A DNA stretch of 64,000 nucleotides from Halomonas sp. CH40. GTDB lineage: Bacteria; Pseudomonadota; Gammaproteobacteria; Pseudomonadales; Halomonadaceae. This document shows positions 3,530 to 29,438 of the stretch, in pieces (position 1 is the first letter of the stretch; each line of letters starts with the position of its first letter). Below the pieces are notes generated by a model. The model had not been told where the DNA came from. It saw nothing but the letters and a program-made list of their open reading frames with translations, and did not search any database. The DNA lies in contig CP112982.1 of the NCBI GenBank assembly GCA_041875495.1, forward strand, positions 3,348,001 to 3,412,000, read 5' to 3'. The translations under genes were made by a program, and so were the position numbers.

Positions 3530-3910
3530 ATGTCCATGCAGATTTACCACTCGCCGATTCAACTTTATGACGTGGTGTTTGTGATCATCCCCCGCCTGGA
3601 ACAGGCGCGTAACCTGGTGAATAGCACCCTGGATACGCTGATCGACAATGCCAGCCACCCCAACGATCTGCTGCGTTACCGGGAAATGCAGCGCAAGCTG
3701 ATGCTGGAAATGCAGATGATCCATGCCAACCTGACCCATCTACTGGAGCGTTACCGCAGCGATGTCCAGGAGCTGCTACAAAGCCAGGGCGCTCAGGGCA
3801 ACCGCGAAGCGCAGCTAGATGATATGGAGCAGGATGCCCTGGCTCGAGCGAAGGAAATCTACCAGAAGGTAGTCGAGTTTCAGACCGGACGGCGCAACGT
3901 GCCCTGGTAA
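3530..3910 (+). CDS. Small helical protein of unknown function
   Basis: A 126-residue predicted cytoplasmic protein with no family that I recognise. It is rich in Leu, Gln, Glu and Arg, and the stretch LRYREMQRKLMLEMQMIHAN through LLERYRSDVQELLQSQGAQG suggests a long amphipathic helix or coiled coil. No signal peptide or membrane segment is visible. Two possible starts (3530 and 3536) are two codons apart; an AAGG lies about 14 bases upstream. It runs toward the amphi-Trp gene and ends 31 bases from that gene's stop, so the two are convergent. Location beside the GAK-type operon may be coincidental. The gene is probably real because codon use and composition match its neighbours. Confidence 0.65.
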   Translation: MSMQIYHSPIQLYDVVFVIIPRLEQARNLVNSTLDTLIDNASHPNDLLRYREMQRKLMLEMQMIHANLTHLLERYRSDVQELLQSQGAQGNREAQLDDMEQDALARAKEIYQKVVEFQTGRRNVPW

Positions 3911-3940: not shown

Positions 3941-4213
3941 TCAATTGCCCACCTTGATTTTCGGCGCTGTACTGGCGATAGCTTTTTCCTTGATGCGCCA
4001 TTTGATCTTGACTTCAACTTCCTGCTTGTCGCCTTCATCGCTGGCACGCAGGGAAACCTGCAGCAGTTGCTGAGGCGACAGCACCAGATCATCTTCGCTT
4101 TCCTGAAATGCCAGATGGCCTTCATTGATGGCCTTGGCCAGAGTCACCAGCAGCTCCTGGGTGGCTTCCCGGTCAAGCAGCGAGTCATGGCTGAACTTGG
4201 TTTTAGACTTCAT
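3941..4213 (-). CDS. Amphi-Trp domain-containing protein
   Basis: This 90-residue protein matches the small amphi-Trp family: an N-terminal KSKTKFSHDSLLDREATQEL, a middle SEDDLVLSPQQLLQVSLRAS and a C-terminal amphipathic strand KQEVEVKIKWRIKEK bearing the conserved Trp. The family is known from its frequent linkage with an ATP-grasp enzyme and an HprK-related kinase (the 'GAK' genes), exactly as here. It is the last gene of the minus-strand operon, 57 bases behind the metallophosphoesterase. A role as a small substrate, carrier or membrane-surface protein modified by the enzymes encoded upstream is plausible but not shown. Confidence 0.8.
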   Translation of the reverse strand: MKSKTKFSHDSLLDREATQELLVTLAKAINEGHLAFQESEDDLVLSPQQLLQVSLRASDEGDKQEVEVKIKWRIKEKAIASTAPKIKVGN

Positions 4214-4269
4214 TGATGGCCCCCCGTTAAGGCTTTATCCATTTAACCCTTTTCCATTTAACTATTTTG

Positions 4270-5616
4270 TTATGACGCCTTGCCCGACCGCTTCCCCTTG
4301 CGTCCGGGGCTGAAGACCTTGGCCACCGGATAGTCGCCGCTCAACCCCACCAGGCCACGTTTTTTATCAATCAGCGTCGCCCCCACGCCTATTCCCTTGA
4401 GTCCTTCGCTTTTCCGCGAGTTGGTATCCAGGGTGATATCGGCCTCGATATGAATCAGGTCATTCTTGAGCGTGACCCGTTGGCCCCCATGTTGGTTGAT
4501 ATGCCCGTGCACCAGCACTTGAATACCGGCCTTTCTGGCCACTCGGGCGCCGTGCCGGGTCAGCGGCAGGTCAGCCTTGCGATACTTGGTTCTGAAGGTA
4601 TTGGCCAGCGAGCCATAGTAGAAGCTGAACAGGTTCTGGCTCATCAGGTTCTTTTTGAACGCCCGGTTGGCATGCTTGATGCCGTGATTGGCCAGCAGTT
4701 CGGCCATTGCATCATCCAGACCTGCATGCAGAAACAGAAAGGAGCCGCGTTTTTTAACCAGCTGCATGCGGCGGAAAAACCAGCCAAACTCACCGGAGGG
4801 CTTGAGAAACAGTGAGCGGCATTTCATCGCTGCGGCATACACCTGCTGCAGTGAGAGCCCATTTTTGGCGCAATGACTCTCAAAGTTCTCGGCTTTCTTG
4901 TGCATCTTGCTGATTTCACGGTCGATGCCTTCTGGTGTCAGAAACCCCGCTGCATAGAAGGGAAAATTTTCAAACCAGGCATCACTGGGAAACAGCGCCT
5001 CTCGGCAAGCGTCTTCACTGGGTATGTCCCTGTCCCATTGGCTATCCGCCAGATACTGGTCAAAAACCTCCTTGAACAGCGGAATGACCTTCTTGCCCAT
5101 ACGCACAAACAGGTGCTGGCTGCCGGTATCGGTGTCGCGTTTCAGCGACAGCAGGCCCATCAGCAGGCGCAGGTCATGGTTACCCGCCAGCAGGGTGACA
5201 TTGGCCTTGAGGCGGTAGAGGTGCGCCAGGCTGCGCAACAGCATCAGGTTGCTGGGCCCCTTGTCCAGGCAGTCACCGCCAACGATGATTTCTGCTTTCT
5301 TGCCGAAACGGGTCAGTTCATATTCACACAGCTGAGCACCGTCACGCTCGATGACTCCAGCGGCTAACAGGGACGCTTCAAATGCTTCAGCATCGGCGTG
5401 GGCATCGGAGATAAACACCACCGGTTTGGCGGGCCAGGTAAAGCGCTTTTTCTGCGCGCGGCGCTGAAAGGTGGCTAACGCATCATCATGGTTGACGGAC
5501 GTCGGGTCATCCGGCCAGGGCGCCCACTCGGTTGGCAGCTGGCTCAGCACGGCATTGTGATAGGCCTGCCTGCTGACCTGTGGAATAAGGTTGAATGCTG
5601 TCATGGTCGCCATCAT
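4270..5616 (-). CDS. Metallophosphoesterase (calcineurin-like) of the GAK-type locus
   Basis: A 448-residue cytoplasmic metallophosphoesterase. All the metal-binding motifs are present in order: D-A-H in VVFISDAHADAEAF (about residue 65), GD in IIVGGDCLDKGPSN, GNHD in LLAGNHDLR, a histidine in FLFLHAGLDDAM and the final VHGHINQHGGQR. A basic tail (SPGRKGKRSGKAS) ends the protein. This metal set is that of phosphomonoesterases, diesterases and nucleotide hydrolases, so the substrate cannot be read from sequence. It begins 3 bases after the histidine phosphatase stop and is fifth in the operon. Several Met codons cluster at the start (5616, 5613, 5604) and none has a strong ribosome site, so the exact start is uncertain. 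Confidence 0.85.
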   Translation of the reverse strand: MMATMTAFNLIPQVSRQAYHNAVLSQLPTEWAPWPDDPTSVNHDDALATFQRRAQKKRFTWPAKPVVFISDAHADAEAFEASLLAAGVIERDGAQLCEYELTRFGKKAEIIVGGDCLDKGPSNLMLLRSLAHLYRLKANVTLLAGNHDLRLLMGLLSLKRDTDTGSQHLFVRMGKKVIPLFKEVFDQYLADSQWDRDIPSEDACREALFPSDAWFENFPFYAAGFLTPEGIDREISKMHKKAENFESHCAKNGLSLQQVYAAAMKCRSLFLKPSGEFGWFFRRMQLVKKRGSFLFLHAGLDDAMAELLANHGIKHANRAFKKNLMSQNLFSFYYGSLANTFRTKYRKADLPLTRHGARVARKAGIQVLVHGHINQHGGQRVTLKNDLIHIEADITLDTNSRKSEGLKGIGVGATLIDKKRGLVGLSGDYPVAKVFSPGRKGKRSGKAS

Positions 5617-5619
5617 CTT

Positions 5620-6303
5620 CTAGTCGAGTGGGTCCGCCGCCTGACGGTGCTTCCAGTTGCCATAAAGCCGCCTCCAGCCGACGGCTTGTCTTTCAAAAAC
5701 GACCGGATGACCGTGAAACATGCTCAACCGTTTAATATCGCCGAAAGAGATGACATTAAGATGATAACAGGCATGACGGATAGAGGCACCGTGGCCAACA
5801 ACCAGCTGTATCTGGCCATCGGCAGCAGAAGGCAGCGCCTGCAAGTGCTGGGCAACCCGCTCGCCGGCTTCCAACAGTGACTCTGCCCCTTCAAAGGGCA
5901 ACCTGAAGTGGCTGGCGGATTTCCAGCCTACTGGTAAAGGCGCCAGGCGTGGGTCCTGGGCGACAATACCTTCGATTTCACCAACGCTGAGATTGGCCAC
6001 GGCCCCTACGCTGCGTTCACACAGGGCAGAAAAGCTGTTGACGGACGGCGACTCGGTAAAAAAAGAGGCGAGCTCCTGGCGGTAGATATCCGCCGTTTGC
6101 CAGGCTCTTAACAGCGTCGAACAGTGAATATCGCTACGTAACCACCACCCTGACCCGGCCAGCCAGTCGCCGAATGCACGGGCCTGCGCCCTGACCTCGG
6201 CTGTGCCTTCTGCTGTCAAGGGGTAGGGCTGCAGCGCACTGGGCGTTTTTGCCCGTTGGGCATAGTCACCGTGGCGAATCAGCGCCAGCCGCTGCACGTT
6301 CAT
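5620..6303 (-). CDS. Histidine phosphatase family (phosphoglycerate mutase-like/SixA-like) protein
   Basis: A 227-residue histidine phosphatase. The catalytic RHG motif is at residues about 10-12 (LALIRHGDYAQ), and the second histidine lies in VVGHGASIRH near residue 170. The presumed acid residue lies in the CERSVGAVANLSVGEIEGIV segment. Family members remove phosphoryl groups from small molecules or, in SixA, from phosphohistidine on proteins. Its ATG overlaps the stop of the HprK-related gene by 4 bases (ATGA), showing translational coupling. Being beside a kinase related to HprK, it may reverse that kinase's modification; this is an inference from context only. Confidence 0.85.
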   Translation of the reverse strand: MNVQRLALIRHGDYAQRAKTPSALQPYPLTAEGTAEVRAQARAFGDWLAGSGWWLRSDIHCSTLLRAWQTADIYRQELASFFTESPSVNSFSALCERSVGAVANLSVGEIEGIVAQDPRLAPLPVGWKSASHFRLPFEGAESLLEAGERVAQHLQALPSAADGQIQLVVGHGASIRHACYHLNVISFGDIKRLSMFHGHPVVFERQAVGWRRLYGNWKHRQAADPLD

Positions 6304-7409
6304 GCCAAAAGCCCTTCTGCCTTGAGCAGTTCGATGGCGCGGTCAAAGTTCACTCCACCGTTCAGGCGTAACACCTTTACGCCGGCCAGCTGGTCGGCGT
6401 AAAGGCGACAGGAAGGCGCCTGCTCAGGGGGAAAGTGGCCATCGCCACTCTGAAAAAACGGCCCAGGGCTTTTACGCAAACCCTCCAGCGCCTCAGGCGT
6501 TTGCTCTATATCCACGCGGTTTAGCCCGGTGGGCGTAGTAGCCTCAAGCGACCAGTCCAGCAGTACCAGAGTACTCAGCTTGCCTGACAGTGTGGTTTTA
6601 TCATCACCGTAAAGCGCTGGAATCAGCACGTCATATTTTTGCTCAATGCCCCAGAGTTGCGCAGTCGGCATCTGCCCATAGCGCTCGCGCTCAGCAGCGC
6701 TCAATAGCCCGGCAAGCCGCGCTGAACTGATCAGAGTGCCAGGGTTTACCCGAGGATGCTTGGCCACACCCAGCACCTCGGTGGCGCATCCTTCAGGCTG
6801 GGGCTTGAACAGGATACGATCATTGGACAGAAAGCGGGCGCCGGGGTTTTCCAGGGCTTTCAGCATCAGGGTCGATTTGCCACCGCCTGAGCTGGCGGCA
6901 ATCGCTGTTGCCTGGCCATTGGCCGTAAAGGCTGAGGCATGCCCTAGAAAATAGCCGCAGCGCTGCTGCACATTGAGAAACTGGTTGTTGATAAAATTGA
7001 CGACCTGAGAAAAATGCCGGGTCAGATCGCCCATGGCAAGCGGAGCGTCCAGGGTCTGGAGAAATACCATGCCGGTGCGGACTTTATGAATCCAGCGGCC
7101 CTCAGAGGTATCCCAGTAGGCTTCTTTCAGACCCAGCGGGCTGGGTTTGTTACGCTTGGCCGGCGTCCAGTTAATGCCTTGGGTGTTGGCTTGCTGATCA
7201 ATCAGGAACACCGCTTGCACCGGCTGGCTCTCACTCGGAATACTCGCGGTCAGGCCTGAATAATACTGCTTGAGCAACTCAAGAATGCGCGGATTATCGG
7301 CCCATATCTGCAAGGTCAGCCCCTGAAAAGGCAGTAACAGGTGAACGGTACAGCTGGCCTTGAGGCTGGCCAGAGGCTGGCAGACAAGGGCATCAATTTT
7401 GAGTGTCAT
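6300..7409 (-). CDS. HprK-related kinase B of the GAK-type system
   Basis: A 369-residue P-loop kinase resembling the C-terminal domain of HPr kinase/phosphorylase. The Walker A is ASSGGGKST (about residues 169-177), followed by FLSNDRILF, where HprK has its SDD-like segment, and by HPRVNPGTL. The sensor domain of true HprK and its exact capsular motif are absent, so it is a relative rather than HprK itself. HPr-kinase-related proteins of this type are repeatedly found with an ATP-grasp gene and amphi-Trp gene. The start codon overlaps the ATP-grasp stop (TGATG), and the stop overlaps the next start. The likely job is phosphorylation of a protein or small molecule handled by the neighbours; the substrate is unknown. 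Confidence 0.85.
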   Translation of the reverse strand: MTLKIDALVCQPLASLKASCTVHLLLPFQGLTLQIWADNPRILELLKQYYSGLTASIPSESQPVQAVFLIDQQANTQGINWTPAKRNKPSPLGLKEAYWDTSEGRWIHKVRTGMVFLQTLDAPLAMGDLTRHFSQVVNFINNQFLNVQQRCGYFLGHASAFTANGQATAIAASSGGGKSTLMLKALENPGARFLSNDRILFKPQPEGCATEVLGVAKHPRVNPGTLISSARLAGLLSAAERERYGQMPTAQLWGIEQKYDVLIPALYGDDKTTLSGKLSTLVLLDWSLEATTPTGLNRVDIEQTPEALEGLRKSPGPFFQSGDGHFPPEQAPSCRLYADQLAGVKVLRLNGGVNFDRAIELLKAEGLLA

Positions 7410-8317
7410 CAGGCAGGCTCCCGGTTATCAGCCTGCAGCTCGGCCAGTACGTGATCACACAGCGCCCCGGCAGCATCGAGGCCGCAGCCTTTGAGCGCGC
7501 CGCTGAAACCACCAAAAGCAGAGACTTCAAACACCACAGGCCCTTCATCGGTCAGGGCAATATCCACGGTGGTGAAGCTCAGTTCAAAACAGGCCTGTGC
7601 CTGGCGGCCAAGCGCAATCAGCTCAGGACTGGCATGATAGGCTTGGTACTTGCCCCCACTATGAATAGTGGTGTTCCAGGTATTGGCGCCGCTCACCCGG
7701 GCATAAGTACACAGGTATTCGCCGCCGATAAACACCATTCCCAGATCCTGGCCGCCCAGATTGACAAATTTCTGCAGGTAAAAAAGCCCGTGCCTGTCTC
7801 TGAAAGCATCCAGCTTGCGTCGGTTGGTTGCCTCATCGTTGGCCACATCCAGCACCACCATACCCCGCGCCTTGGTGGAATAAAGCGGCTTAAGAATCGC
7901 CTTGTCGAACTCTCTGATCGCCTCCAGCGCTTCATCGGTGTTTTCAGTCACTCGGGTGGGCGGCAGGCTGACATTGCCCGAGGCCAGCGCCGCTGTGCCT
8001 TCAAGGCGGTTGATCAGACGGCTTATCTGCCCTGGGCTGCTGAAACAGCGCACGCCATCGGCTTCCAGGCTGCCCAGCATGCGAATCCGGTCATCGGCGG
8101 CAGGTGAATAGGTCTCACTGACCTTTTTGATAATGACGCCATCCAGTTCGTTCAGCAGAATATCGCCGTAACGTAACTTGCCCGTTTCAAGTTCCAGCAC
8201 CACCTCAGCCATATCCACCACGCAGCGAAAGCCGGTGCGCGCTTCCAGATGGTCAGCCAGGACATCGGTCGACCACTTTCCAGGCGTTCCGATGACGGCA
8301 ATCCGCTTATCAATCAT
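7409..8317 (-). CDS. GAK-type ATP-grasp enzyme
   Basis: An ATP-grasp fold enzyme of 302 residues from the ATG at 8317, which has GAGG about 10 bases upstream; a TTG in frame at 8332 would add 5 residues but lies in that ribosome site. It begins KRIAVIGTPGKWSTDVLADH. ATP-binding segments include AILKPLYSTKARGMVVLD and LFYLQKFVNLGGQDLGMVFI. The C-terminal GPVVFEVSAFGGFSGALKG carries the metal-binding Glu of the family. ATP-grasp enzymes ligate a carboxylate, activated as acyl phosphate, to an amine or thiol. It overlaps the upstream phosphotransferase by 8 bases and the downstream kinase by 1 base. The conserved partnership with the HprK-like kinase defines the GAK grouping, so a pathway role is likely though undefined. 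Confidence 0.88.
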   Translation of the reverse strand: MIDKRIAVIGTPGKWSTDVLADHLEARTGFRCVVDMAEVVLELETGKLRYGDILLNELDGVIIKKVSETYSPAADDRIRMLGSLEADGVRCFSSPGQISRLINRLEGTAALASGNVSLPPTRVTENTDEALEAIREFDKAILKPLYSTKARGMVVLDVANDEATNRRKLDAFRDRHGLFYLQKFVNLGGQDLGMVFIGGEYLCTYARVSGANTWNTTIHSGGKYQAYHASPELIALGRQAQACFELSFTTVDIALTDEGPVVFEVSAFGGFSGALKGCGLDAAGALCDHVLAELQADNREPA

Positions 8318-9947
8318 GAAAAATATCCTCAAGGGGCAGCTTGTAGGTATCGAGAGCGTGCGGATTCACCAGGGTAATCGCTTCCAGCAGATAGCCAGCT
8401 CTCAGCGCCAGCGCGCTGGCAAACTGCCTGTCATAAATAAAGCGTGTGGAGGTGGCAAACGAGCGCCCCAGGGCAATCGCCAGGCGCGCATCGAAGCTTG
8501 TGTCCTGGTGGCTCTTGGCAAACCGGCGAGCAAACTGATAAAGCTGGTGGATCAGGCCCATCAGCTCGGCTCTGGGCGCGGTATCCAGAATCGGCAGCCG
8601 ATAGATCGACACCATCAGCACGGACAGATCCTGTACGTAATCCGAGTAAGACGCGCGGTGCAGGTCGATAAAATAGATGCGCTCCTTGAGATCGTCATAA
8701 ATGATGTTATCGACGTTGAAATCGCCGTGAATCAGCACCGAAAACGGCGCCCGCAGCTGCTTCTCCAGGGTGCCGACATGATCAATCAGCTGATCAAAGC
8801 TCGGGCGCGTCAGCCCGCAGATAAACTGCCCTTCACTGAATAACCCCGGATGGGTATGGCGGCTTTCCGGCAGGCGTTTCCGCAACTGCTGCATGTAACC
8901 GGGCTGCGCCATTTCAGCGGTACGGGAACTTTTCCAGATTTTTCGCAGGGTTTTCTGCAGTTTGTCGATCAGCTGACGGGCGGCGTCCCATTGATGGTTG
9001 AGCAGCAGCGATTCAAGCGTATGTCCGGGCAGGTGTTCAATCACCATGGAACTCAGCTTATCGCCCTTTTCAACATGCTGGGAAAGCACCGTTGGCGCCA
9101 CCTTGGGATACACCTGATTCCACTGATCCACCCCGGAGAGCTCTTCAATCACCTTCTTGCTCTGGCCTTCCTTGTAGACGGCCATGACTTCACCGGCGTC
9201 AGCATGCTCAGCCTTGAGGGTAGCAATCGTGCTGCCACTGCGGGTCAGCGCCAAGCGCTCAACGCTGAACCCGGCATCCTGATCCGCCATGGCATGGGCC
9301 GCCTTCTTGAGCTGCTTGTAGTTCTGCAATCGCACCGCAGGGCCGAAGTTGGCCGCCAGTAAGGCATCGGCCAGCTCTGATAACAGCTGCACCATGCGTC
9401 GGATCTGAAAATCCAGCACGGCACAGGCACCGGTACTGGAAGTCTCTGGCAGGCGGGCCAACAGCTTGGGAATCCGGCGCCCAATCTTGAGGCCTTGACG
9501 GGTGTTGGCGTTATCCAGCTTGATAGTCACCAGCTTGAGCGATTTACCAATCGAACGAATGACCTTGGCATAGCCCTTGAGATTGCTCTTGAGATCATCC
9601 TTGCGGTCGCCTTTCAGGTCTTTATTCGACAGCTTTTCCAGCGACCGGATATCCGTGACTTCCAGACAGGCGTGGCCCAGCTGGTCAAGCAGGCTGGCCA
9701 GACGCTCCAGGGATTTGGATTGCTGAAAACCGGCGCCGTCAACCTTGCGCCTTTGCACGTCAAGCGCCACCGCAAGCTCGACCTTCTCCAGCAAGGTGCT
9801 GCGGTAACCTTGACGGTCAATCAAACGCTTTGCGACGGCCCCTTTGGGTTGGGTCACATAAACTTCAACTAACTCAAAGTGATTTTCAACTTCGAATCGG
9901 AGAAAATAGAAATGCTCCAGAATGGATGCGTTGATAACCTGCCTCAC
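8310..9947 (-). CDS. Large aminoglycoside phosphotransferase-like (APH) kinase
   Basis: This 545-residue protein has two parts. Residues 1 to about 240 are mostly helical and unfamiliar, with Lys/Asp-rich NKDLKGDRKDDLKSNLKGYA. The second half is a protein-kinase-like APH fold with the Brenner motif HGDFNVDNIIYD and the DFG-equivalent YFIDLHRASY. APH kinases phosphorylate small molecules. The first codon is GTG at 9947 with no convincing ribosome site, so the start could be wrong. It is first in the six-gene operon and overlaps the ATP-grasp gene, and lies 125 bases from the divergent CofD-like gene. Homologous phosphotransferases occur in other GAK-type loci as I recall them; the substrate is unknown. 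Confidence 0.78.
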   Translation of the reverse strand: MRQVINASILEHFYFLRFEVENHFELVEVYVTQPKGAVAKRLIDRQGYRSTLLEKVELAVALDVQRRKVDGAGFQQSKSLERLASLLDQLGHACLEVTDIRSLEKLSNKDLKGDRKDDLKSNLKGYAKVIRSIGKSLKLVTIKLDNANTRQGLKIGRRIPKLLARLPETSSTGACAVLDFQIRRMVQLLSELADALLAANFGPAVRLQNYKQLKKAAHAMADQDAGFSVERLALTRSGSTIATLKAEHADAGEVMAVYKEGQSKKVIEELSGVDQWNQVYPKVAPTVLSQHVEKGDKLSSMVIEHLPGHTLESLLLNHQWDAARQLIDKLQKTLRKIWKSSRTAEMAQPGYMQQLRKRLPESRHTHPGLFSEGQFICGLTRPSFDQLIDHVGTLEKQLRAPFSVLIHGDFNVDNIIYDDLKERIYFIDLHRASYSDYVQDLSVLMVSIYRLPILDTAPRAELMGLIHQLYQFARRFAKSHQDTSFDARLAIALGRSFATSTRFIYDRQFASALALRAGYLLEAITLVNPHALDTYKLPLEDIFHD

Positions 9948-10072
9948 CGTACAAGTGCCATGAATGGGAGGATGATACTATAAGTAACCTTGTCATTCCT
10001 GTGTGTTACATTTTTCTTAAATTTCAGTCAATTGCATCAGCAAGCTGAATAAAACGCCGGATAGGAAGCTGG

Positions 10073-11293
10073 ATGAAGAAACGTCGCCGGGGTCACTCCT
10101 GCCTTGATATACCCCGAGACCCCGCCAGGGGGCAGGCGTTGCGCCTGGCCAGGTACCGTAAAGCCCCCGAACTTGGGCCCAAGCTGCTTTTCTTCAGCGG
10201 TGGCAGTGCCTTACGGCGTCTATCCGAGGTACTAACCGACTATACCCACAATTCCATTCACCTTGTTACCCCCTTTGATTCGGGCGGCAGCTCCGCTGAG
10301 CTGCGCCGCGCCTTTGCCATGCCCGCGGTAGGCGATCTGCGCGCGCGCCTGCTATCACTGGCGGATGATTCGGTGACCGGGCACCCGGATGTCGCCGCGC
10401 TTTTTTCCCATCGCTTGAACGGCTCGGGGCTTGAGCAGAACCTGCTGGATCTGGTCAACGCCAAGCATCCCTTGCTCAAGGCGATTGCCGAACCCATGCG
10501 CTCACTGATTCAAAGCTATCTCGCCGCCTTTTATCGCCAGATGCCAGCGGATTTCGACCTGGCTGGTGCCAGCGTGGGCAATCTGATCCTGACCGGTGGC
10601 TACCTGATCCACAACCGCTCGCTGGATCCGATTGCCTTTCTGTTTGGCCAGCTGATCAAGACACGCGGGACGGTGCGCACCACCAGCGACGTTGACCTGC
10701 AGCTGGAAGTCGAGCTTGAAAATGGCCGCACGATTACCGGGCAGCATAATTTTACCGGCAAGGAAACCGCCAGCATCGACTCCCCGATCCGCGCCATCAA
10801 ACTCACCGGGGAAGCAGATGATATTGATACCCTGGATGCTTCCAGAGTCTGCAAGGAAACCCTGACGCTGATTGATTCCGCCGAGCTTCTGGTGTTTCCA
10901 CCGGGTAGCTTTTACAGCAGTATTATCGCCAACCTGCTGCCCAAGGGCGTCACCAAGGCCTTGCACAAAAACCCTTCACCCAGGGTCTATGTACCCAGCC
11001 TGGGCACCGACCTGGAGACACTGGGCATGACGCTAGCGGATCAGGTTCAGGTGCTTGACCAGCACCTGGCCGGTACGCCAGCGACCAAGGCCACCTCCAG
11101 GCATAGCGGGCGATGTGCCATCGACTTTGTGCTTTTCGATTCCCGGTTGCTCAGCGTTTCGGACAAGCAGGTAGCACGGATCAGCGGTGAGATGGGCGTA
11201 CAGTTGATTGACACCGACCTGGCTAACGATGCTCACGATACTCATCGCTATGACGACACCAAGCTCGCCCAGGCGCTGCTCGGGCTGACATAA
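10073..11293 (+). CDS. GAK-type CofD-like protein
   Basis: A 406-residue relative of CofD/YvcK. It contains KLLFFSGGSALRRLSEVL near residue 40 (nucleotide-binding glycine loop), HLVTPFDSGGSSAELRR, and AVGDLRARLLSLA, which are the family landmarks. CofD transfers 2-phospholactate to deazaflavin, whereas the YvcK branch is regulatory, so the family alone does not fix the reaction. Near the end, VLFDSRLLSVSDKQVARISG is unassigned. It has AGGAAG before the ATG and is transcribed divergently from the phosphotransferase-led operon across a shared 125-base promoter region. The combination ATP-grasp, HprK-like kinase, CofD-like and amphi-Trp matches the GAK gene set. Confidence 0.85.
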   Translation: MKKRRRGHSCLDIPRDPARGQALRLARYRKAPELGPKLLFFSGGSALRRLSEVLTDYTHNSIHLVTPFDSGGSSAELRRAFAMPAVGDLRARLLSLADDSVTGHPDVAALFSHRLNGSGLEQNLLDLVNAKHPLLKAIAEPMRSLIQSYLAAFYRQMPADFDLAGASVGNLILTGGYLIHNRSLDPIAFLFGQLIKTRGTVRTTSDVDLQLEVELENGRTITGQHNFTGKETASIDSPIRAIKLTGEADDIDTLDASRVCKETLTLIDSAELLVFPPGSFYSSIIANLLPKGVTKALHKNPSPRVYVPSLGTDLETLGMTLADQVQVLDQHLAGTPATKATSRHSGRCAIDFVLFDSRLLSVSDKQVARISGEMGVQLIDTDLANDAHDTHRYDDTKLAQALLGLT

Positions 11294-17351: not shown

Positions 17352-18263
17352 TCAGCAAGTCGTCATTAACAGAGGATTAACGTTGTTATTAGCAGCGGGA
17401 CTTTCTGCTACAAGCCCTACTACACTGCCTACGATTATAATGCACGGTGATGGCAACGGTTGAGCAGAGAGCGTTTGGGGCATATCAACGAGTGTGCCCA
17501 CCAGCGATTGCTGATCAGGTCGACTGGCGTTCGCCACCAGCATGATGGGCCAATGATCAGGCAATCCAGCCTCCCGTAACCCCTCGCAAATCGCTTCGAC
17601 CTTGGAGAGCCCCATGTAAAACACCAGTGTCTCGTCGCGTTGGGCAAGTGCTGACCAGTCCGGCGTACCTTCCTCACGACAAAGCTGTGCGGTCACAAAG
17701 CGGATCTGCTGAGCATGCCCTCTGTCAGTCAGTGGTATACCCATACAAGCAGCAGCTGAGGAGGCGGCCGTAATGCCGGGCACAATCGTGGCCGACAGCT
17801 GTGCTGCAGCTAATGCCTCAAGTTCTTCACCCATACGACCAAAAACCGCGGGGTCGCCTCCTTTCAAACGTACCACTGACTTGCCCTCACGGGCCAGTTT
17901 GACCATCAGAGCGCCTATTTCAGGCTGGGGAACGCTATGCAGCCCCCTTGCCTTGCCTACGTAATAACGCTCGCAACCAACAGGAATCAGCGCGAGTACG
18001 TCATCACCCACTAAACGGTCATACACGATTGCATCTGCCTGACCTATAAGCCGCGCAGCCTTGAGTGTTAACAACTCAACATCACCACTTCCGGCCCCTA
18101 TGAGATACACATGACCCGGCTGAGAGCTATTCTGTATAGCCAATGGTTTATTTTTAATATCGTTGCCACGCCTTGCTTCCAAAAAGCTAGAACCTACGAG
18201 ATTCATGAGCCGTGGTAATGAATGGCACCATTTCAGCAGTGAGAATTTATTTAATACACGCAT
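17352..18263 (-). CDS. cobA: Uroporphyrinogen-III C-methyltransferase (siroheme branch)
   Basis: A 303-residue SAM-dependent methyltransferase that converts uroporphyrinogen III to precorrin-2, the first step toward siroheme, the cofactor of NirB. After an odd N-terminus of about 45 residues, the core starts GHVYLIGAGSGDVELLTLKA. It includes VRLKGGDPAVFGRMGEELEA and VPGITAASSAAACMGIPLTD, all diagnostic of SUMT. The CysG dehydrogenase/ferrochelatase half is absent, so that step is encoded elsewhere. AAGGAG precedes the ATG. It lies 177 bases behind nasA in the same direction with no terminator visible between, so it is probably the second gene of the nasA operon. Confidence 0.92.
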   Translation of the reverse strand: MRVLNKFSLLKWCHSLPRLMNLVGSSFLEARRGNDIKNKPLAIQNSSQPGHVYLIGAGSGDVELLTLKAARLIGQADAIVYDRLVGDDVLALIPVGCERYYVGKARGLHSVPQPEIGALMVKLAREGKSVVRLKGGDPAVFGRMGEELEALAAAQLSATIVPGITAASSAAACMGIPLTDRGHAQQIRFVTAQLCREEGTPDWSALAQRDETLVFYMGLSKVEAICEGLREAGLPDHWPIMLVANASRPDQQSLVGTLVDMPQTLSAQPLPSPCIIIVGSVVGLVAESPAANNNVNPLLMTTC

Positions 18264-18440
18264 GAAAGCGCTCCTTTTTAAACCTTGATTTAATCAGCAA
18301 TACTGGTGGACAACCCTTTAACGAGAAAAACTCTCATTTAATCTTGATTCTGTAACAAAAAGCCCCTACTCCACTTTCGGCAAGCCAGAGAAGGACTTTA
18401 CAACAGGTCATTACAGCAACAGTCGTCAGGCAGTGAAGGC

Positions 18441-21116
18441 TTAAACCAGTTCTGTGATGGCATTATGAGCTTCCTGTTGAATAAGCGACCTGACTTCCGG
18501 TAAGCAGGAACCGCAATTGGTGCCACAGGAGAGAGTTTTACCAAGAAGCTCTGGCGTATCCTGACCGTCAGATATGGCTTTTATGATCTGGTTAGCGGAG
18601 ACTTGAAAACAACTACAAATGAGCTGGTTATCTGTTTGCGCACCAGAAAGTGTAAAAATAGCGTGCCTTGCTTCGAGTGAAAGGTTTTGACTGGCGAAAT
18701 GCTGATCGATTGCTTTAACTTCCAACTGGGGGCGCTCCCTGCTGACGACCAGCATCCAGGCAAACTGCCCCTGATCAAAACCGGCGGCCCGAAAAGCGCC
18801 TTCTTGGGAGCTTTCCAATTGCATTTGCGGGCGCTGCCCTAAAGTCACTTCACACCAGGCACTCCAATCCTTAATGCTTTGGCAACCCGCAAAGACATAG
18901 CTGTGACTGTTGGCCAGGGATTGTTCAGCCAGATAATCTGCCTGCAAAGGCTTGTGTAATGGTTGGGCAATCAGAAGCTGGGCCTGCCAGGCAACTTGCA
19001 ACGCTTCAAGTTGCACACGGCCCTGCTTGAATTCAGGTTGCCCGGATACAGGATCACAGAACTGCTCAATCAACTGATTGCACAGCCCCTTGTCAGTGAA
19101 CTGGCGGTTCCAATGTATGGGAATAAAAATTTCACCATGCCTTTGGCCATGATTGAACCGTACACGCCCCAGATAATCACCTTGAGGATGACTCAACCTG
19201 GCTAATCCTTGATCTTTCAGGCCAACTTGAGCGGCATCATCAGGGTGAACTTCAATAAAAGGTTCGTTTCTGTGTTGCATTAAAGCAGGTGAGCGCCCTG
19301 TACGTGCCATGGTATGCCACTGATCACGGATGCGGCCGGTGTTCAAACGAAAAGGATAAGTTGGATTCAGTTTATGTTCAGGCGGCCTGGATTGAATACC
19401 TATAAACTGTGCACGCTGGCTGGCAGTGAAAAATTTTCCGTGCACAAAAAGACGTTCAGTGCCTAAAGGGTTGGCAGCATTAACAGGCCACTGCACAGGC
19501 TTCAGGCCGTCATAGGCCAAATCTGTCAGATGCTGCAATCCACTGATATCAAAACAACGTTGGCCTTGGTTTTTGAAACCAGACAAAGCGGCGTGCTCAC
19601 GAAAGATATCTGCAGGCGAAGAGTAATCAAAAGCCTGGCCATGACCCAGGGCTTGTGCGATCTGGCAGATAATTTGCCAGTCATGACGTGCTTCGCCGGG
19701 AGCAGGCAAAAAGCCACGCTGGCGAGAAATTCGCCTTTCTGAATTAGTCACCGTACCGTTTTTTTCAGACCAGGTAGTGGCTGGTAAAACGATATTCGCC
19801 AGCTCCAGTGTATCTGTTGAGGCGGCTGACTCTGAAATGATGACCAGCTCACATTTTTCCAGCGCTTCACGGACAAACTGACTATCAGGCAGGCTAACCA
19901 AGGGGTTAGTACCCTGAATCCAAACCGCTTTGATTTCACCAGAATGAATGGCTCTAAAAAGATCCAGAGCTTTATAACCTTCCTGTCGAGTCATTCTGGG
20001 TGCCCGCCAGAACTCTTCTACAAGCGCCACTTCCTGATCAGAAAATCCCATATGAGCCGCCAGCTGATTGGCCAGGCCACCAACCTCTCTCCCCCCCATG
20101 GCATTAGGTTGTCCCGTAAGGGAAAAAGGTGTGCTACCTGGTTTGCCGATTCGCCCCGTCGCCAGATGGCAATTAATCAGCGCATTCACCTTATCAGTAC
20201 CACTGCTGGACTGGTTCAAACCTTGGGAAAAAAGACTGACCGTTTTAGGCGTCTCTGCAAACCAGTGAAAAAAAGTCAGCAGCTGGTGCTCAGGAACATC
20301 CAGCTGGCTTACAACCGCTTTGATATCCCCTGCTTCCGAGAGGGCCGTCAAAAGGCTGCCCGAAAAGTGGTCAGTGGAACGGCGGATAAACTCCTGGTCC
20401 ACGTATTCATGTTCAGATAGATAAACCAGTAGCGCATTGAAAAGCAGAGCATCGGTGCCTGGTTTTAAAGCCAAGTGAAGGTCGGCCTGGTCACAGGTGG
20501 CGGTTAGGCGTGGATCGATGACGACCACCTTGAGTTCTGGGCGTTCCTGTCTAGCGGCTTGAATGCGCTGATAAAGCACCGGATGGTTCCAGGCTGTGTT
20601 CGACCCGACCAACACCAACAAGTCAGCCAGTTCAATATCTTCATAACAGCCAGGCACAGCATCTGCCCCGAAAGCCCGTTTGTGGCCAGCAACGGTGGAA
20701 GCCATGCAGAGTCGGGAGTTGGTATCTACATGGCTGCTGCCAATAAAACCTTTCATGAGCTTATTGGCGACATAATAATCCTCTGTCAGCAACTGACCTG
20801 ACAGGTAAAAAGCCAGACTTTTTGAACCATAGCGATCAATAATACTTTGTAGCTCTTGAGCAGTCGCTTCGATGGCTTTATCCCAGCTGACCCTTTCTCC
20901 CGCAATTCGTGGATATAAAAGACGCCCTTGATGGCCACCTGTTTCCGATAACTTACTGCCTTTAATACAAAGGCGCCCCAGATTTGCCGGGTGCGACGCA
21001 TCACCGGAAGTAGCAACCAGGCTATCATTTTTAGCGTTAACAGTGGCCTTCACGCCACAACCAACACCACAATAAGGACAAGTTGTGAAAACGCAACTCG
21101 TTGCATGCTTGTTCAT
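18441..21116 (-). CDS. nasA: Assimilatory nitrate reductase catalytic subunit NasA
   Basis: An 891-residue molybdopterin oxidoreductase that reduces nitrate to nitrite in the cytoplasm. The N-terminal [4Fe-4S] motif is CPYCGVGCGV...GRLCIKG. Mo-bis-MGD binding regions follow (SRLCMASTVAGHKRAFGADA, QGTNPLVSLPDSQFVREALE, FRLNTGRIRDQWHTMARTGR). The C-terminus carries a BFD-type [2Fe-2S] domain (ICSCFQVSANQI...CGTNCGSC), as in Klebsiella-type NasA, which takes electrons from a NasC-like reductase not found in this window. The start chosen is the ATG at 21116. A TTG in frame at 21131 lies inside the T-run of the leader terminator and cannot be sensible. Expression is probably set by the sigma54 promoter and attenuator upstream. 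Confidence 0.93.
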   Translation of the reverse strand: MNKHATSCVFTTCPYCGVGCGVKATVNAKNDSLVATSGDASHPANLGRLCIKGSKLSETGGHQGRLLYPRIAGERVSWDKAIEATAQELQSIIDRYGSKSLAFYLSGQLLTEDYYVANKLMKGFIGSSHVDTNSRLCMASTVAGHKRAFGADAVPGCYEDIELADLLVLVGSNTAWNHPVLYQRIQAARQERPELKVVVIDPRLTATCDQADLHLALKPGTDALLFNALLVYLSEHEYVDQEFIRRSTDHFSGSLLTALSEAGDIKAVVSQLDVPEHQLLTFFHWFAETPKTVSLFSQGLNQSSSGTDKVNALINCHLATGRIGKPGSTPFSLTGQPNAMGGREVGGLANQLAAHMGFSDQEVALVEEFWRAPRMTRQEGYKALDLFRAIHSGEIKAVWIQGTNPLVSLPDSQFVREALEKCELVIISESAASTDTLELANIVLPATTWSEKNGTVTNSERRISRQRGFLPAPGEARHDWQIICQIAQALGHGQAFDYSSPADIFREHAALSGFKNQGQRCFDISGLQHLTDLAYDGLKPVQWPVNAANPLGTERLFVHGKFFTASQRAQFIGIQSRPPEHKLNPTYPFRLNTGRIRDQWHTMARTGRSPALMQHRNEPFIEVHPDDAAQVGLKDQGLARLSHPQGDYLGRVRFNHGQRHGEIFIPIHWNRQFTDKGLCNQLIEQFCDPVSGQPEFKQGRVQLEALQVAWQAQLLIAQPLHKPLQADYLAEQSLANSHSYVFAGCQSIKDWSAWCEVTLGQRPQMQLESSQEGAFRAAGFDQGQFAWMLVVSRERPQLEVKAIDQHFASQNLSLEARHAIFTLSGAQTDNQLICSCFQVSANQIIKAISDGQDTPELLGKTLSCGTNCGSCLPEVRSLIQQEAHNAITELV

Positions 21117-21129
21117 TTTCGATAGTCCC

Positions 21130-21173
21130 AAAAAAAAGCCTGCAATCCCTAAATTTGTTTAGGGATTGCAGGC
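21130..21173 (-). promoter_or_regulatory. Leader terminator (attenuator) before nasA, probable NasR target
   Basis: On the minus strand a perfect 16-bp stem (GCCTGCAATCCCTAAA pairing with TTTAGGGATTGCAGGC, loop CAAA) is followed directly by eight T residues and then, 13 bases later, the nasA ATG. An intrinsic terminator between promoter and start codon would block the gene unless relieved. In Klebsiella NasR, an ANTAR protein, relieves such a terminator in the nasF leader; nasR is the divergent neighbour here. The NasR-binding hairpin itself is not obvious. Confidence 0.85.
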
Positions 21174-21237
21174 TGCGTTGCCTGAAAAGTTTCTTGTTGA
21201 ATCGTTATGACGCTGATACATACAATGTTATAAGAAA

Positions 21238-21253
21238 AGCAATTTTCATGCCA
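21238..21253 (-). promoter_or_regulatory. Sigma54-type promoter for nasA
   Basis: Minus-strand TGGCATGAAAATTGCT matches the sigma54 consensus TGGCAC-N5-TTGCW with the invariant GG and GC exactly 10 bases apart. Predicted transcription start is near 21226, leaving a leader of about 110 bases that contains the attenuator. Sigma54 control fits NtrC-dependent nitrogen regulation; no clear NtrC sites were identified. Confidence 0.75.
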
Positions 21254-21612
21254 AAAATTTATGTCTTTAAAAACAGTTATTTATATATTGACGATACTTG
21301 GCACCAAAGAGAACCTGCACTTTTGTAAGGCAACCGCGGTGGCTTTGCTCTTTTTTAGGGACGGTGAACCGACGTTGACCAGTGAAAAACCAGTTATCTG
21401 GCTTGAAATTTATCTGCATCGTGCTGCGAATTACGATGTTGCCTACGCCTCCATGCAGCTCTCTTTACCCTTACTCATTGATTTACAAATATATTATCGC
21501 CAACCAAAAAATTATAAATTTTCTAATTTAGCAAGACAAATAACGATAAGGAACAAAACTTGCTACTCACCTGAAGAAGATTCAAGTAACCAGACAAGGT
21601 GGGTAATAACGA
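21254..21612. other. Divergent nasA-nasR intergenic region
   Basis: This 359-base AT-rich stretch lies between the nasA promoter and nasR. It should hold enhancer sites for nasA and the nasR promoter. An open frame covers part of it, but it has no ribosome site and overlaps the nasR start, so I do not call it a gene. Confidence 0.4.
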
Positions 21613-22851
21613 ATGACCAGCACACGTAACCGTCTAGCCAAAAACTACTTGTTGGCTGCTAAACATTGTGAAATACATGGCCTTGAATATCTGGAAGTGA
21701 CCTGTGAGCTGGTAGCTTATGTCAGCCAACTGATTCATGCACTGCAAAAAGAGCGTGGGCTTTCTAATGTACTTCTTGCGTCACAAGGGAGTCATTTTGG
21801 TGATCAGCGCATCGAACAAGTCCAGAATTCACGGGAAAAGGAAAGCCAGCTGGATCAGTTCTTACAGGAATTGAACCCGCAAAAATGCCACGACAATGGA
21901 CGGGTTAGACAGTTTATTCGCATTGCCGCTGTTCTTCAGGAATTGGACCAGCTGCCTTGCCTACGCCAGAAGATTCTTGAGCAGCACTTACAACCTGAAG
22001 AATCAACTGAAGCCTTCACTCATTTGATAGGTGGTTTATTGTCGATTGTTTTTGAGGCAGCAGACGCTTCAGCTGACCCTGAAATCACTCGCCACCTGGT
22101 CGCCATGTTCAATTTTATGCAGGGTAAGGAGCTGGCAGGGCAGGAAAGGGCCTGGGGTGCCAGTGGTTTTGCAACGGGTCATTTTACTGAAGAAAACCAA
22201 CAGCGCCTCTGTCATCTTGTTGAACGTCAGGAAAAATGCTTTGAGCTCTTTGAGCAGTTCGCAGATCAGCATTCACTCCAGGCCTGGCAGCAGCTCTTTG
22301 AAGCTACTGCACATAAAGAGTTGTTGCGCTTGCGACAAGTCGTCAAAAAATCAGGCAAGAATGAAGGAATTCCATCCAGCTTCAGCGAAGTCTGGTATGA
22401 AGTTGCGACTGGCCGTATTGATGCCATGAAAATCATAGAAGACCAACTGGCTACGGCCCTCAAAAAACTTTCTGAACGTCGTATCCAAAGAGCCAGGGTC
22501 GATCTTAAGAACCATCAGGAGTTCCTGGATCAACTGGCCCAAGAGCCGACAGACGCGCCTTCCTCTTTATGGGTGGAAGGTCAGATGAGTGGAGTAGGAC
22601 GCTCACTCTGTGAATTGGTACAAATTCAGGCCCAGCATCTGCAACGGGTACAGGATCAGCTACAGGAAGCGCGCCAAGCCCTGGAGGAACGCAAGTTGGT
22701 GGAACGTGCCAAAGGCTTATTGATGCAGCATCGTCGCGTCACAGAAGAGCAGGCCTATCGCCAGTTACGTAAAGCCGCAATGGAACAAAATCGACGCCTG
22801 GTTGAAGTGGCGGAAAGAGTCATCACCACGGTTGAGTTACTTCAAGGCTAA
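21613..22851 (+). CDS. nasR: Nitrate-responsive antiterminator NasR (NIT-ANTAR)
   Basis: A 412-residue cytoplasmic regulator. The N-terminal two thirds is a helical NIT nitrate-sensing domain (ELVAYVSQLIHALQKERGLS is the typical first helix). The last 60 residues form an ANTAR RNA-binding domain: KLVERAKGLLMQHRRVTEEQ followed by AYRQLRKAAMEQNRRLVEVA. A coiled coil (RVQDQLQEARQALEERK) joins them. In Klebsiella, NasR binds nitrate or nitrite and then the nasF leader RNA, stopping a terminator from forming. Here the gene sits between the nasA-cobA and nrt-nir operons, both of which have a leader terminator, so it likely controls both. AAGGTGG lies upstream of the ATG. Confidence 0.92.
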   Translation: MTSTRNRLAKNYLLAAKHCEIHGLEYLEVTCELVAYVSQLIHALQKERGLSNVLLASQGSHFGDQRIEQVQNSREKESQLDQFLQELNPQKCHDNGRVRQFIRIAAVLQELDQLPCLRQKILEQHLQPEESTEAFTHLIGGLLSIVFEAADASADPEITRHLVAMFNFMQGKELAGQERAWGASGFATGHFTEENQQRLCHLVERQEKCFELFEQFADQHSLQAWQQLFEATAHKELLRLRQVVKKSGKNEGIPSSFSEVWYEVATGRIDAMKIIEDQLATALKKLSERRIQRARVDLKNHQEFLDQLAQEPTDAPSSLWVEGQMSGVGRSLCELVQIQAQHLQRVQDQLQEARQALEERKLVERAKGLLMQHRRVTEEQAYRQLRKAAMEQNRRLVEVAERVITTVELLQG

Positions 22852-22998
22852 AAGTAAAAAATGCGCTCTTATGTTTCATTTCAAAACCAGTGTGCACTGC
22901 AACAGCGCTTAAAGAGCCATAGCCCTGCAAGGCGAGATAGAGCACTTTTTTATTTTAAGTCGATGATTTTTAATAAAAATAATTTTATTATGTTTTTC

Positions 22999-23014
22999 TG
23001 GCATGAATCATGCT
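22999..23014 (+). promoter_or_regulatory. Sigma54-type promoter for the nrt-nir operon
   Basis: TGGCATGAATCATGCT keeps the GG and GC dinucleotides 10 bases apart, as required for sigma54. It shares TGGCATGAA with the divergent nasA promoter. Start of transcription is expected near 23025, about 20 bases before the attenuator stem. Confidence 0.7.
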
Positions 23015-23044
23015 TAACATCTGACTGACAATTTATAAATGGAT

Positions 23045-23102
23045 AACGGCGTCCACTTCCCTACTGCTCAAAAGCAGCTACTGGAAGTGACGCCGTTTTT
23101 TT
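23045..23102 (+). promoter_or_regulatory. Leader terminator (attenuator) before nrtA, probable NasR target
   Basis: A long hairpin: AACGGCGTC pairs with GACGCCGTT, then with one bulged C ACTTCC pairs with GGAAGT, and an apical CTGCT-CAAA-AGCAG closes it. Seven T residues follow. It lies between the sigma54 promoter and the nrtA ribosome site at 23111, so it must be read through for expression. The sequence is unrelated to the nasA attenuator, but the arrangement is the same. Confidence 0.85.
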
Positions 23103-23122
23103 ATGTTTACGAGGTACAGATA

Positions 23123-24511
23123 ATGAAAAAAGCTGCTCAATCCCAGAGCTTGATTGGCCTAGGTCTTGCCAAGGCAACGCTTCTTAGTGGTGTCCTGATC
23201 TCTGGATCAGCAATGGCACTAGGCCTTCCTGAAAAAGAAGATCTGACGTTTGGTTTCATTAAACTGACTGATATGGCTCCCCTGGCCATTGCCTATGAAA
23301 AGGGTTTCTTTGAAGATGAAGGGCTTTATGTGCAGTTGGAAGCTCAGTCTAACTGGCGAGTTCTGCTGGATGGGGTCATTGAAGGCCGGTTGGATGGCGC
23401 TCATATGCTGGCTGGCCAACCGTTGGGAGCAACGGTGGGTTTTGGCACTGAAGCCCATATCGTTACTGCCTTCACCATGGATCTGAACGGCAATGCCTGT
23501 ACCGTTTCCAATGATGTTTGGGAAATGATGCGCCCCAACCTGCCAACAGATGATGAAGGCAAGCCTATTCATCCGATCAGCGCTGAGCATCTGCAACCCG
23601 TGATTGAAGAATATAATTTTATGGGTGAAAACTTCAATCTGGGCATGGTTTTCCCAGTTTCTACCCACAACTATGAATTGCGTTATTGGTTGGCTGCTGG
23701 CGGAATTAATCCAGGCCTCTATGCTCCCCAGCGTGGAGATACCTCAGGCACCCAAGGAGCTGGTGTACAAATCTCAGTCACACCTCCCCCGCAAATGCCC
23801 TCAACGTTGGATGCAGGCACCATTCACGGCTACTGTGTTGGAGAACCCTGGAACCAACAAGCGGTATTTCGTGATATCGGTGTTCCGGTTATTACAGACT
23901 ATGATATTCGCAATAATATAGCTGAAAAGGTGTTTGGCGTCAGTAATGAGTGGGCTGAGGAATACCCCAATACTCACTTGCGTGTTGTCAAAGCCCTGAT
24001 TCGTGCTGGCCACTGGTTAGATAAAAATGATAACGCTAATCGCGAAGAAGCCGCTCAGATTATCTCCAATAGCTACTATGTCGGAGCTGATTATGAAGTG
24101 ATTGCCAACAGTATGACCGGTGTCTTTGAGTTTGAAAAAGGCGATGTGCGCCCTGCCCCGGATTACAATGTCTTTTTCCGCTACAACGCCACTTACCCCT
24201 ATTATTCCGATGCCATCTGGTACCTGACCCAGATGCGCCGCTGGGGGCAGTTGCCTGAAGCCAAGTCGGATGACTGGTATGCGGAAACAGCCCAAAAGGT
24301 TTTCCTGCCGGAAGTTTACGAGGAAGCCGCTGCATCACTAATTGCGGATGGCCTTTTTCAGCCTGAAGATTTTCCCGATTTTGAGCAAGAAGATGGCTTT
24401 AGATCTATTGATCACACCACATTTATTGATGGCATCAAGTTTGATGCGCATCAACCTAACGAGTATTTAAACCAATTCTCAATTGGCCTTAAAAACGATG
24501 ACACCCCTTAA
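23123..24511 (+). CDS. nrtA: Nitrate ABC transporter substrate-binding protein (NrtA/NasF family)
   Basis: A 463-residue periplasmic nitrate-binding protein from the ATG at 23123 (GAGGT upstream); an earlier in-frame ATG at 23039 lies inside the leader hairpin region. The N-terminus MKKAAQSQSLIGLGLAKATLLSG...AMA is a signal peptide. The mature part shows the NrtA/CmpA fold: FGFIKLTDMAPLAIAYEKGF, LDGVIEGRLDGAHMLAGQPL, DLNGNACTVSNDVWE and GYCVGEPWNQQA. Related NrtA and CmpA bind nitrate and bicarbonate; linkage with NasR, NirB and NasA favours nitrate. First gene of a five-gene operon. Confidence 0.9.
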   Translation: MKKAAQSQSLIGLGLAKATLLSGVLISGSAMALGLPEKEDLTFGFIKLTDMAPLAIAYEKGFFEDEGLYVQLEAQSNWRVLLDGVIEGRLDGAHMLAGQPLGATVGFGTEAHIVTAFTMDLNGNACTVSNDVWEMMRPNLPTDDEGKPIHPISAEHLQPVIEEYNFMGENFNLGMVFPVSTHNYELRYWLAAGGINPGLYAPQRGDTSGTQGAGVQISVTPPPQMPSTLDAGTIHGYCVGEPWNQQAVFRDIGVPVITDYDIRNNIAEKVFGVSNEWAEEYPNTHLRVVKALIRAGHWLDKNDNANREEAAQIISNSYYVGADYEVIANSMTGVFEFEKGDVRPAPDYNVFFRYNATYPYYSDAIWYLTQMRRWGQLPEAKSDDWYAETAQKVFLPEVYEEAAASLIADGLFQPEDFPDFEQEDGFRSIDHTTFIDGIKFDAHQPNEYLNQFSIGLKNDDTP

Positions 24512-24544
24512 ATTTAATTCATTTAAGGTAAGAGGGTTAATATC

Positions 24545-25531: not shown

Positions 25532-25548
25532 TCTATAGGTAATCAATC

Positions 25549-26406: not shown

Positions 26407-26432
26407 CTTTGCTGATTGAGGAGATTAGACTT

Positions 26433-29299: not shown

Positions 29300-29335
29300 T
29301 ACCTCCATTACTCATCAAGTTTAAAATAAAATTTA

Positions 29336-29368
29336 ATGCTCGGACAATAGATGCCCCCTTCCGAGCAT
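29336..29368 (+). terminator. Stem-loop downstream of nirD
   Basis: A perfect 9-bp stem ATGCTCGGA / TCCGAGCAT with a 15-base loop begins 37 bases after the nirD stop. No T-run follows, so it may act as an mRNA 3'-end stabiliser or pause site. Confidence 0.4.
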
Positions 29369-29438
29369 AGTTATTCATGAAAGCAACCCACGATCTTGCA
29401 AAAAACATTCAGCACTAATATGTTAAAACGCTGTCTTA

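Follow-up and report, generated by a model that had tools for sequence, protein, structure and literature searches.

The locus analyzed here consists of seven genes at positions 3941..11293 of a 64 kb stretch of DNA from Halomonas sp. CH40 (the window). The first-pass annotation described seven clustered genes that include the GAK set of protein-family databases, and profile searches bear this out: four of the products score above NCBIfam cut-offs and the other three above Pfam cut-offs. A check of open reading frames (ORFs) in the window found all seven frames whole and in place. The features are as follows.

3941..4213, minus strand: amphi-Trp domain protein, 90 amino acids (TIGR04354, 58.2 bits, cut-off 31)
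4270..5616, minus strand: metallophosphoesterase, 448 amino acids, with ApaH/PPP-like motifs GGDCLDKGP, GNHD, HAG, and HGH (PF00149, 30.5 bits, cut-off 21.5)
5620..6303, minus strand: histidine phosphatase, 227 amino acids (PF00300, His_Phos_1, 66.4 bits, above cut-off)
6300..7409, minus strand: HprK-related kinase B (HprK-B), 369 amino acids, P-loop SGGGKST (TIGR04355, 261.6 bits, cut-off 200)
7409..8332, minus strand: predicted GAK ATP-grasp ligase, RimK/MptN group (TIGR04356, 397.6 bits, cut-off 300)
8310..9947, minus strand: predicted PhoU-APH kinase fusion, 545 amino acids (Pfam APH above cut-off; family profile compared with PDB)
9948..10072, no strand assigned: divergent promoter region of 125 bases, shared by the kinase operon and the CofD-like gene
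10005..10022, minus strand: weak Pho-box-like site, 58-75 bases upstream of the kinase start, first half-site degenerate (8.9 bits)
10073..11293, plus strand: GAK CofD-like protein, YvcK-like, 406 amino acids (TIGR04357, 439.1 bits, cut-off 340)

Six of these genes (kinase, ATP-grasp, HprK-B, histidine phosphatase, metallophosphoesterase, and amphi-Trp) form a single minus-strand operon, from which the CofD-like gene diverges. From kinase to amphi-Trp, successive junctions are overlaps of 8, 1, and 4 bases and then gaps of 3 and 56 bases, in agreement with the short gaps or overlaps described earlier. The 8-base overlap assumes that the ATP-grasp gene starts at an ATG at 8317, which is probably correct, rather than at the listed TTG at 8332.

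Recurrence of the gene set

Including the window, 54 GAK loci were compared. All were picked by their ATP-grasp gene, and several are closely related: 27 came from a species-genome scan, with 10 more from a sample of the class, 13 from a sample of the phylum, and three from plasmids (of five plasmid records found). The 53 besides the window come from Pseudomonadota, from bins of Desulfovibrio, and from one bin of Eisenbacteria. Among named relatives, Vreelandella azerica (ATP-grasp 97% identical) and a Halomonas bin (94%) are closest. Twelve loci are cut by the end of their stretch and were excluded from linkage counts, leaving 42 uncut. In these, kinase and amphi-Trp genes are always present (42/42 for each), followed by HprK-B (40/42), the metallophosphoesterase (39/42), the histidine phosphatase (37/42), and a linked CofD gene (24/42), and all six operon genes are in the window's order in 35 of the 42, window included. 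With the same clustering present at 53 other loci, it is not a matter of chance, and the gene set is old and stable. As to whether the genes recur together, six of the seven do so as a cluster, while CofD is partly scattered, being unlinked or absent in many genomes.

Distribution of the set is sparse. Among 321 gammaproteobacterial genomes, 10 have an ATP-grasp over its cut-off, and among 398 genomes sampled across the phylum, 13 do; the window's genome is included in both counts. Among public plasmid records, the six-gene order is annotated in all three that were read and a divergent CofD gene in two; a search of phages gave no match at an expectation value (E) of 1e-20.

Both phosphatases are missing from loci L026, L071, and L079. 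Because the smallest uncut locus, L079, comprises kinase, ATP-grasp, and amphi-Trp genes, the central reaction is probably the work of these three, with HprK-B, the phosphatases, the CofD-like protein, and the Nudix enzymes described below elaborating or regulating it. HprK-B has no match in whole genomes G023 and G324, which keep amphi-Trp, and only a weak match in the fragmented G125.

The PhoU-like domain, promoter sites, and phosphate genes

The protein at first labeled as an APH-type phosphotransferase is a fusion, PhoU-like over residues ~1-220 and a kinase over 225-545. Compared with the PDB, the kinase family profile matched five PhoU chains (E 1.4e-11 to 1.5e-5) as well as APH(3')-Ia (E 1.9e-6); the Pfam PhoU family (PF01895) was above cut-off in five of six kinase N-termini tested; and in the reverse direction the kinase hidden Markov model matched real PhoU proteins, the identity of three of which was checked. 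The structure model of the kinase has a predicted local distance difference test (pLDDT) score of 86.8. On these sequence comparisons, the N-terminal half of the APH-type kinase is almost certainly a PhoU domain. The mode of action of PhoU has been a puzzle for a long time, and its natural fusion to a kinase would let PhoU output be read as enzyme activity.

Promoters were scanned for Pho-box-like sites with a matrix built from pstS promoters alone; a simple consensus scan was too blunt, and was superseded by this matrix with stricter controls. A pstS family search in 25 genomes gave matches in 22 and returned 30 loci, and 19 boxes, picked by eye from the best-scoring sites upstream of pstS and including no GAK promoter, make up the matrix. 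It was applied to the 200 bases upstream of each operon, with other promoters of the same loci (guanine-plus-cytosine [G+C] content up to 0.52) as controls. At a dinucleotide-shuffle p <= 0.05, 22 of 33 GAK promoters have a site vs. 11 of 104 controls (Fisher 8e-10, uncorrected for relatedness). Since relatedness inflates this figure, lineages were also counted: nine of 16 are within the top tenth of 122 controls, compared to an average of 0.94 for column-permuted matrices, and none of 1000 such matrices reaches the real statistic. The spacer control covered shorter spacers only (-3 to -1).

A hold-out set was formed from loci that came to light later. Six of 12 pass at p <= 0.05, one of them (L187) from the window's own genus. 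With L187 left out, and measured against 45 hold-out control promoters, three of 11 reach the 0.05 level; the hold-out statistic is equaled by 16 of 2000 permuted matrices. Three of the hold-out boxes are near-canonical and as strong as those of pstS: CTGTCACATTAGTGTCAT at -75 in L177, GTGTCATAGAACTGTCAT at -74 in L178, and TTGTCACGAAAATGTCAC, on the other strand, in L179. Two of the three plasmid operons pass at 0.05 vs. one of 22 control promoters, with one of the two sites overlapping the cofD start. Upstream of orphan amphi-Trp genes (see below), no Pho-box-like site was found in seven examined. The window's own site, ATTTAAGAAAAATGTAAC at 10005-10022, has a dinucleotide-shuffle p of 0.035 at its 8.9 bits. 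Its TGTAAC half is kept in most Halomonas-group relatives, where a motif like CTGTAAGAAACATGTAAC is found upstream of a TATACT-like element. The strongest Pho-box match of the window is at 5750-5767 on the minus strand (16.0 bits), within the histidine phosphatase gene, and is probably a chance occurrence.

Genes of phosphate uptake and metabolism lie near some GAK loci. In Nitrincola (L024), phoU, pstA, and pstC are 4-8 kb away; in G291, pstS, phoU, and a pstC-like gene are ~5 kb past cofD; and in G317, DUF47 and PitA-like genes adjoin the amphi-Trp gene, with genes for a PHO4-family transporter, a CYTH protein, a Nudix enzyme, and a polyphosphate:AMP phosphotransferase further out. For both G317 transporters the NCBIfam sulfate permease model ranks above PitA, both below cut-off, and the PitA-like gene of L159 was left without a firm name because its sulfate permease and PitA matches are both below cut-off. 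A polyphosphate kinase 2 gene is ~6 kb from GAK in L071. In scans of the other GAK stretches read, three plasmid stretches being judged by annotation, no further assignable pst, phoU, or Pit gene was seen; L157 has a PstS-like gene of unclear kind. As a separate observation, an ArsR-type regulator and a gapdh-arsJ arsenate pair are directly beside the small GAK locus of L071 (L071:4408-7120), and in the window's own genome the same pair follows pst genes (L163:10469-12816).

Several points weigh against a connection with phosphate. The window's kinase N-terminus, searched alone, has no Pfam PhoU match, and the lists from structure-based fold searches were filled by the kinase half, leaving the PhoU half unaddressed. 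Control promoters pass at twice the nominal rate (11/104), and none of four unlinked cofD promoters has a Pho-box-like site. Nor was a site found at 0.05 in three Marinobacter loci, L003 (p 0.055), L024, L025, L073, L075, L077, L078, and L079 of the first set, in L181-L184, L186, and L188 of the hold-out set, or in L191 of the plasmid set. The window's site is weak, with about a dozen equally good sites in the 64 kb. The nearest pstS found in the window's genome is ~200 kb from GAK, and the neighboring phosphate genes are support of an anecdotal kind and not a test, stretches having been extended only where matches pointed. On balance, Pho control of GAK appears quite likely in several lineages. 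Because the window's own site is weak, the claim for this strain rests on its relatives, and Pho control here is a possibility still somewhat doubtful.

Enzymes, amphi-Trp protein, and other neighbors

Conserved catalytic motifs, with presumed roles, are found in all six enzymes. The P-loop residues, D197, and R198 of HprK-B are at least 95% conserved (47 sequences), and the protein matches HprK structures weakly; in the histidine phosphatase, R10, H11, G12, R66, and H171 are likewise at least 95% conserved (41 sequences). The metallophosphoesterase has weak similarity to ApaH. In locus L080, the frame for HprK-B continues into a Nudix domain (L080:2188-3621), a fusion of two GAK partners. For the ATP-grasp, the nearest other NCBIfam model is MptN (136.7 bits, below its cut-off of 350), and RimK structures are matched at E about 1e-12; the position aligned with the metal-site Asn of RimK is Ser in 50 of 51 GAK sequences. 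Because it falls in the RimK/MptN group, this enzyme is likelier to be an amino acid ligase than a kinase.

The seventh product had been called a CofD-like transferase; among NCBIfam models it is closer to YvcK than to the F420 enzyme. YvcK is its second-best model (133.3 bits, below the cut-off of 196), the Pfam CofD family is matched at 133.8 bits, and a test for true CofD (2-phospholactate transferase) returned only GAK CofD and YvcK among NCBIfam models at E up to 0.01. A search of whole genomes put the CofD-like protein above cut-off in 27 of 28 genomes in a first set and six of 23 in a second (33/51 in total). Fixed membership was rejected on its failure to reach cut-off in 17 of those 23; CofD is a frequent but optional partner. 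In the complete Halomonas genome of L007, the CofD, HprK-B, and metallophosphoesterase genes are each split over several frames, through decay or sequencing errors.

These matches bear on whether the locus makes an F420- or tetrahydromethanopterin-type cofactor, with the ATP-grasp glutamylating a phosphorylated cofactor and CofD transferring a phosphorylated unit. MptN as the nearest other model and the Pfam CofD match are what such a pathway would lead one to expect, but the restriction of NCBIfam matches to GAK CofD and YvcK, the shortage of CofD in the second genome set, and the presence of two kinases and several phosphatases, which would be odd there, leave it very improbable.

The amphi-Trp protein is modeled as a helix and four strands (pLDDT 83.6), a fold for which a Foldseek search gave no PDB match (best E 1.6); on both grounds an HPr-like fold is disfavored. 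Only L22 and W72 are invariant among 32 amphi-Trp sequences. The 20 GAK copies compared conserve H9, S11, and D14 to at least 90%, with Ser11 replaced by Ala in L015 and L016 and His9 absent from the Desulfovibrio and Eisenbacteria copies; the idea that His9 tracks the histidine phosphatase was rejected, as it breaks in L024, L071, and L079. No conservation is seen at the C-terminus. Of the 11 class-sample genomes with a GAK ATP-grasp (in one of which the ATP-grasp is split and below cut-off), 10 have amphi-Trp over cut-off, vs. 16 of 310 others; one of the others, G223, holds GAK gene fragments, with no ATP-grasp found there.

Orphan amphi-Trp genes (L104-L119, e.g., L104:6145-6366) encode short "RDIEK"-type proteins of ~74 amino acids in gammaproteobacteria that lack a GAK ATP-grasp. 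Comparison by eye of 16 stretches, among them L117 and L118 from GAK genomes, and with the amphi-Trp frame visible in some only, gave no common neighbor. The Desulfovibrio (L026) and Eisenbacteria (L025) GAK loci have a second amphi-Trp protein, and L025 has in addition an XXXCH protein that matches amphi-Trp weakly (L025:3103-3708, L025:10291-10614, and L026:6242-6700 for these features).

One explanation of the locus is protein modification: HprK-B and the ATP-grasp would modify amphi-Trp, by Ser/His phosphorylation or by RimK/LysX-like amino acid addition, and the phosphatases would reverse this. An amphi-Trp gene in all 42 uncut loci and the near-constancy of H9, S11, and D14 in GAK copies fit this, and relatives of both HprK and RimK include enzymes acting on proteins or peptides. 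However, amphi-Trp has no invariant phosphorylatable residue; its C-terminus is variable, whereas that of LysW-type carriers is conserved; it also turns up above cut-off in 16 of 310 gammaproteobacterial genomes with no GAK ATP-grasp match; and two whole genomes keep it with HprK-B unmatched. Modification of amphi-Trp is rather unlikely on this evidence, and a role as binding or scaffold partner is likelier for this protein than one as phospho-acceptor. Of the earlier suggestion that a phosphorylated modification of a small molecule or a peptide such as amphi-Trp is made and turned over, the making and removal of something phosphorylated is well supported by the recurrence of the genes; amphi-Trp as the modified peptide finds no support in residue conservation.

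Further hydrolases, either a SixA-Nudix fusion or a Nudix enzyme, accompany GAK in some lineages. A SixA-Nudix fusion query matched in 14 of the 54, in L080 by its Nudix half alone, and in the class sample fusion-length matches were found in six genomes, all with GAK genes (one match is split over two contigs). For the Nudix half, the best matches are human DIPP enzymes (E about 1e-7), above diadenosine tetraphosphate (Ap4A) hydrolases. In G180 and G291, related Nudix genes adjoin phoR, phoB, and pst genes, the PhoB and PhoR of G180 having been checked, and an ApaH gene adjoins GAK in L183, L186, and L188 (PRK00166 above cut-off in all three). Such enzymes could conceivably belong to phosphorus salvage, in which Pho-regulated hydrolases and kinases recycle nucleotides or Ap4A-like compounds with no dedicated signal: the ApaH-like, histidine phosphatase, SixA, and Nudix enzymes are suited to nucleotide hydrolysis, and three loci have ApaH alongside. 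The constant members are however the kinase, ATP-grasp, and amphi-Trp rather than hydrolases, and three loci (L026, L071, L079) do without both phosphatases; salvage is an improbable account of the set.

Outside the locus, the flanking genes encode a YihY-type membrane protein and a proline dehydrogenase/aldehyde dehydrogenase fusion, neither of which recurred as a common neighbor in neighborhood clustering. A plus-strand frame of 126 amino acids beside the operon (window 3530-3910) has no Pfam or NCBIfam match. At 18001-30000 the G+C content of the window is 0.47-0.50, compared to 0.55-0.61 upstream, possibly indicating a foreign segment.

A possible phosphate-responsive pathway and its relatives

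The PhoU domain and the promoter sites give the most likely physiological setting for this pathway: the GAK operon is probably a response to phosphate shortage. From the gene set, domain fusion, motifs, and promoter enrichment observed, a fuller mechanism may be inferred, in which the locus would be a phosphate-responsive metabolic or signaling operon. PhoB would induce it when phosphate is short. The PhoU domain would sense phosphate, a metal, or a PhoR/Pst/Pit partner and gate the fused kinase, which would phosphorylate a small hydroxylated acceptor; the ATP-grasp would form a bond between an amine and a carboxylate, probably that of an amino acid, via an acyl phosphate, kinase and ligase acting on one molecule, and HprK-B would add or relay a second phosphate. 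When phosphate returns, the phosphatases and Nudix enzymes would remove the product, which might serve phosphate homeostasis as a signal or a store. Taken in full, this mechanism is offered tentatively, at slightly less than even confidence.

Inositol is unlikely as the substrate, because its synthase INO1 (PF07994) was matched in just one of 27 GAK genomes, and not in the window's; on the same count, inositol pyrophosphates as such were rejected. A more speculative version would make GAK an inositol-pyrophosphate-like form of bacterial phosphate signaling without inositol, the PhoU-gated kinase, ATP-grasp, and HprK-like kinase building a multiply phosphorylated or diphosphorylated messenger under PhoB, and the histidine phosphatase, PPP-type phosphatase, and DIPP-like Nudix enzyme erasing it. 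This is improbable. Should the product prove to be a messenger, it would be a new phosphate-signaling metabolite in bacteria.

The GAK set was already known as a named set in NCBIfam, and a literature search, which answered for the GAK family names and accessions only, found no paper under them. As far as that search reaches, the constant PhoU-kinase, the optional CofD, and the phosphate link are new, as are the two phosphatases and SixA-Nudix as recurrent members. A gene set named in databases thereby gains a physiological context of phosphate limitation, PhoB, and a PhoU-kinase.

Compared to the GAK system as defined (TIGR04354-TIGR04358), four of the seven genes exceed the family cut-offs, but the NCBI names do not extend to a PhoU-APH kinase, to any phosphatase, or to a link with phosphate, and CofD, a named member, is the least constant here. 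The XXXCH protein of some GAK members (TIGR04358) is present in the Eisenbacteria locus L025; a search limited to the seven proteins of the present locus gave no match to it. With HPr kinase/phosphorylase and the HprK-related kinases, the locus shares a P-loop kinase weakly matching HprK structures, but no HPr-like partner is seen at the locus, and the amphi-Trp model orders its helix and strands otherwise than HPr. The ATP-grasp shares sequence family and motifs with the RimK/MptN/LysX ligases, and differs from RimK in the Ser opposite its metal-site Asn. In the Pho regulon, PhoU is not joined to a kinase as it is here, and pst genes are near in few of the loci read; the likeness lies in the PhoU-like domain and in the Pho-box-like promoter sites of relatives. 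The eukaryotic inositol pyrophosphate cycle (PPIP5K, DIPP) differs in that the GAK ATP-grasp is of RimK ligase type and 26 of 27 GAK genomes give no inositol synthase match, but it has in common with GAK the combination of an ATP-grasp enzyme, a histidine phosphatase, and a DIPP-like Nudix enzyme, and a tie to phosphate.

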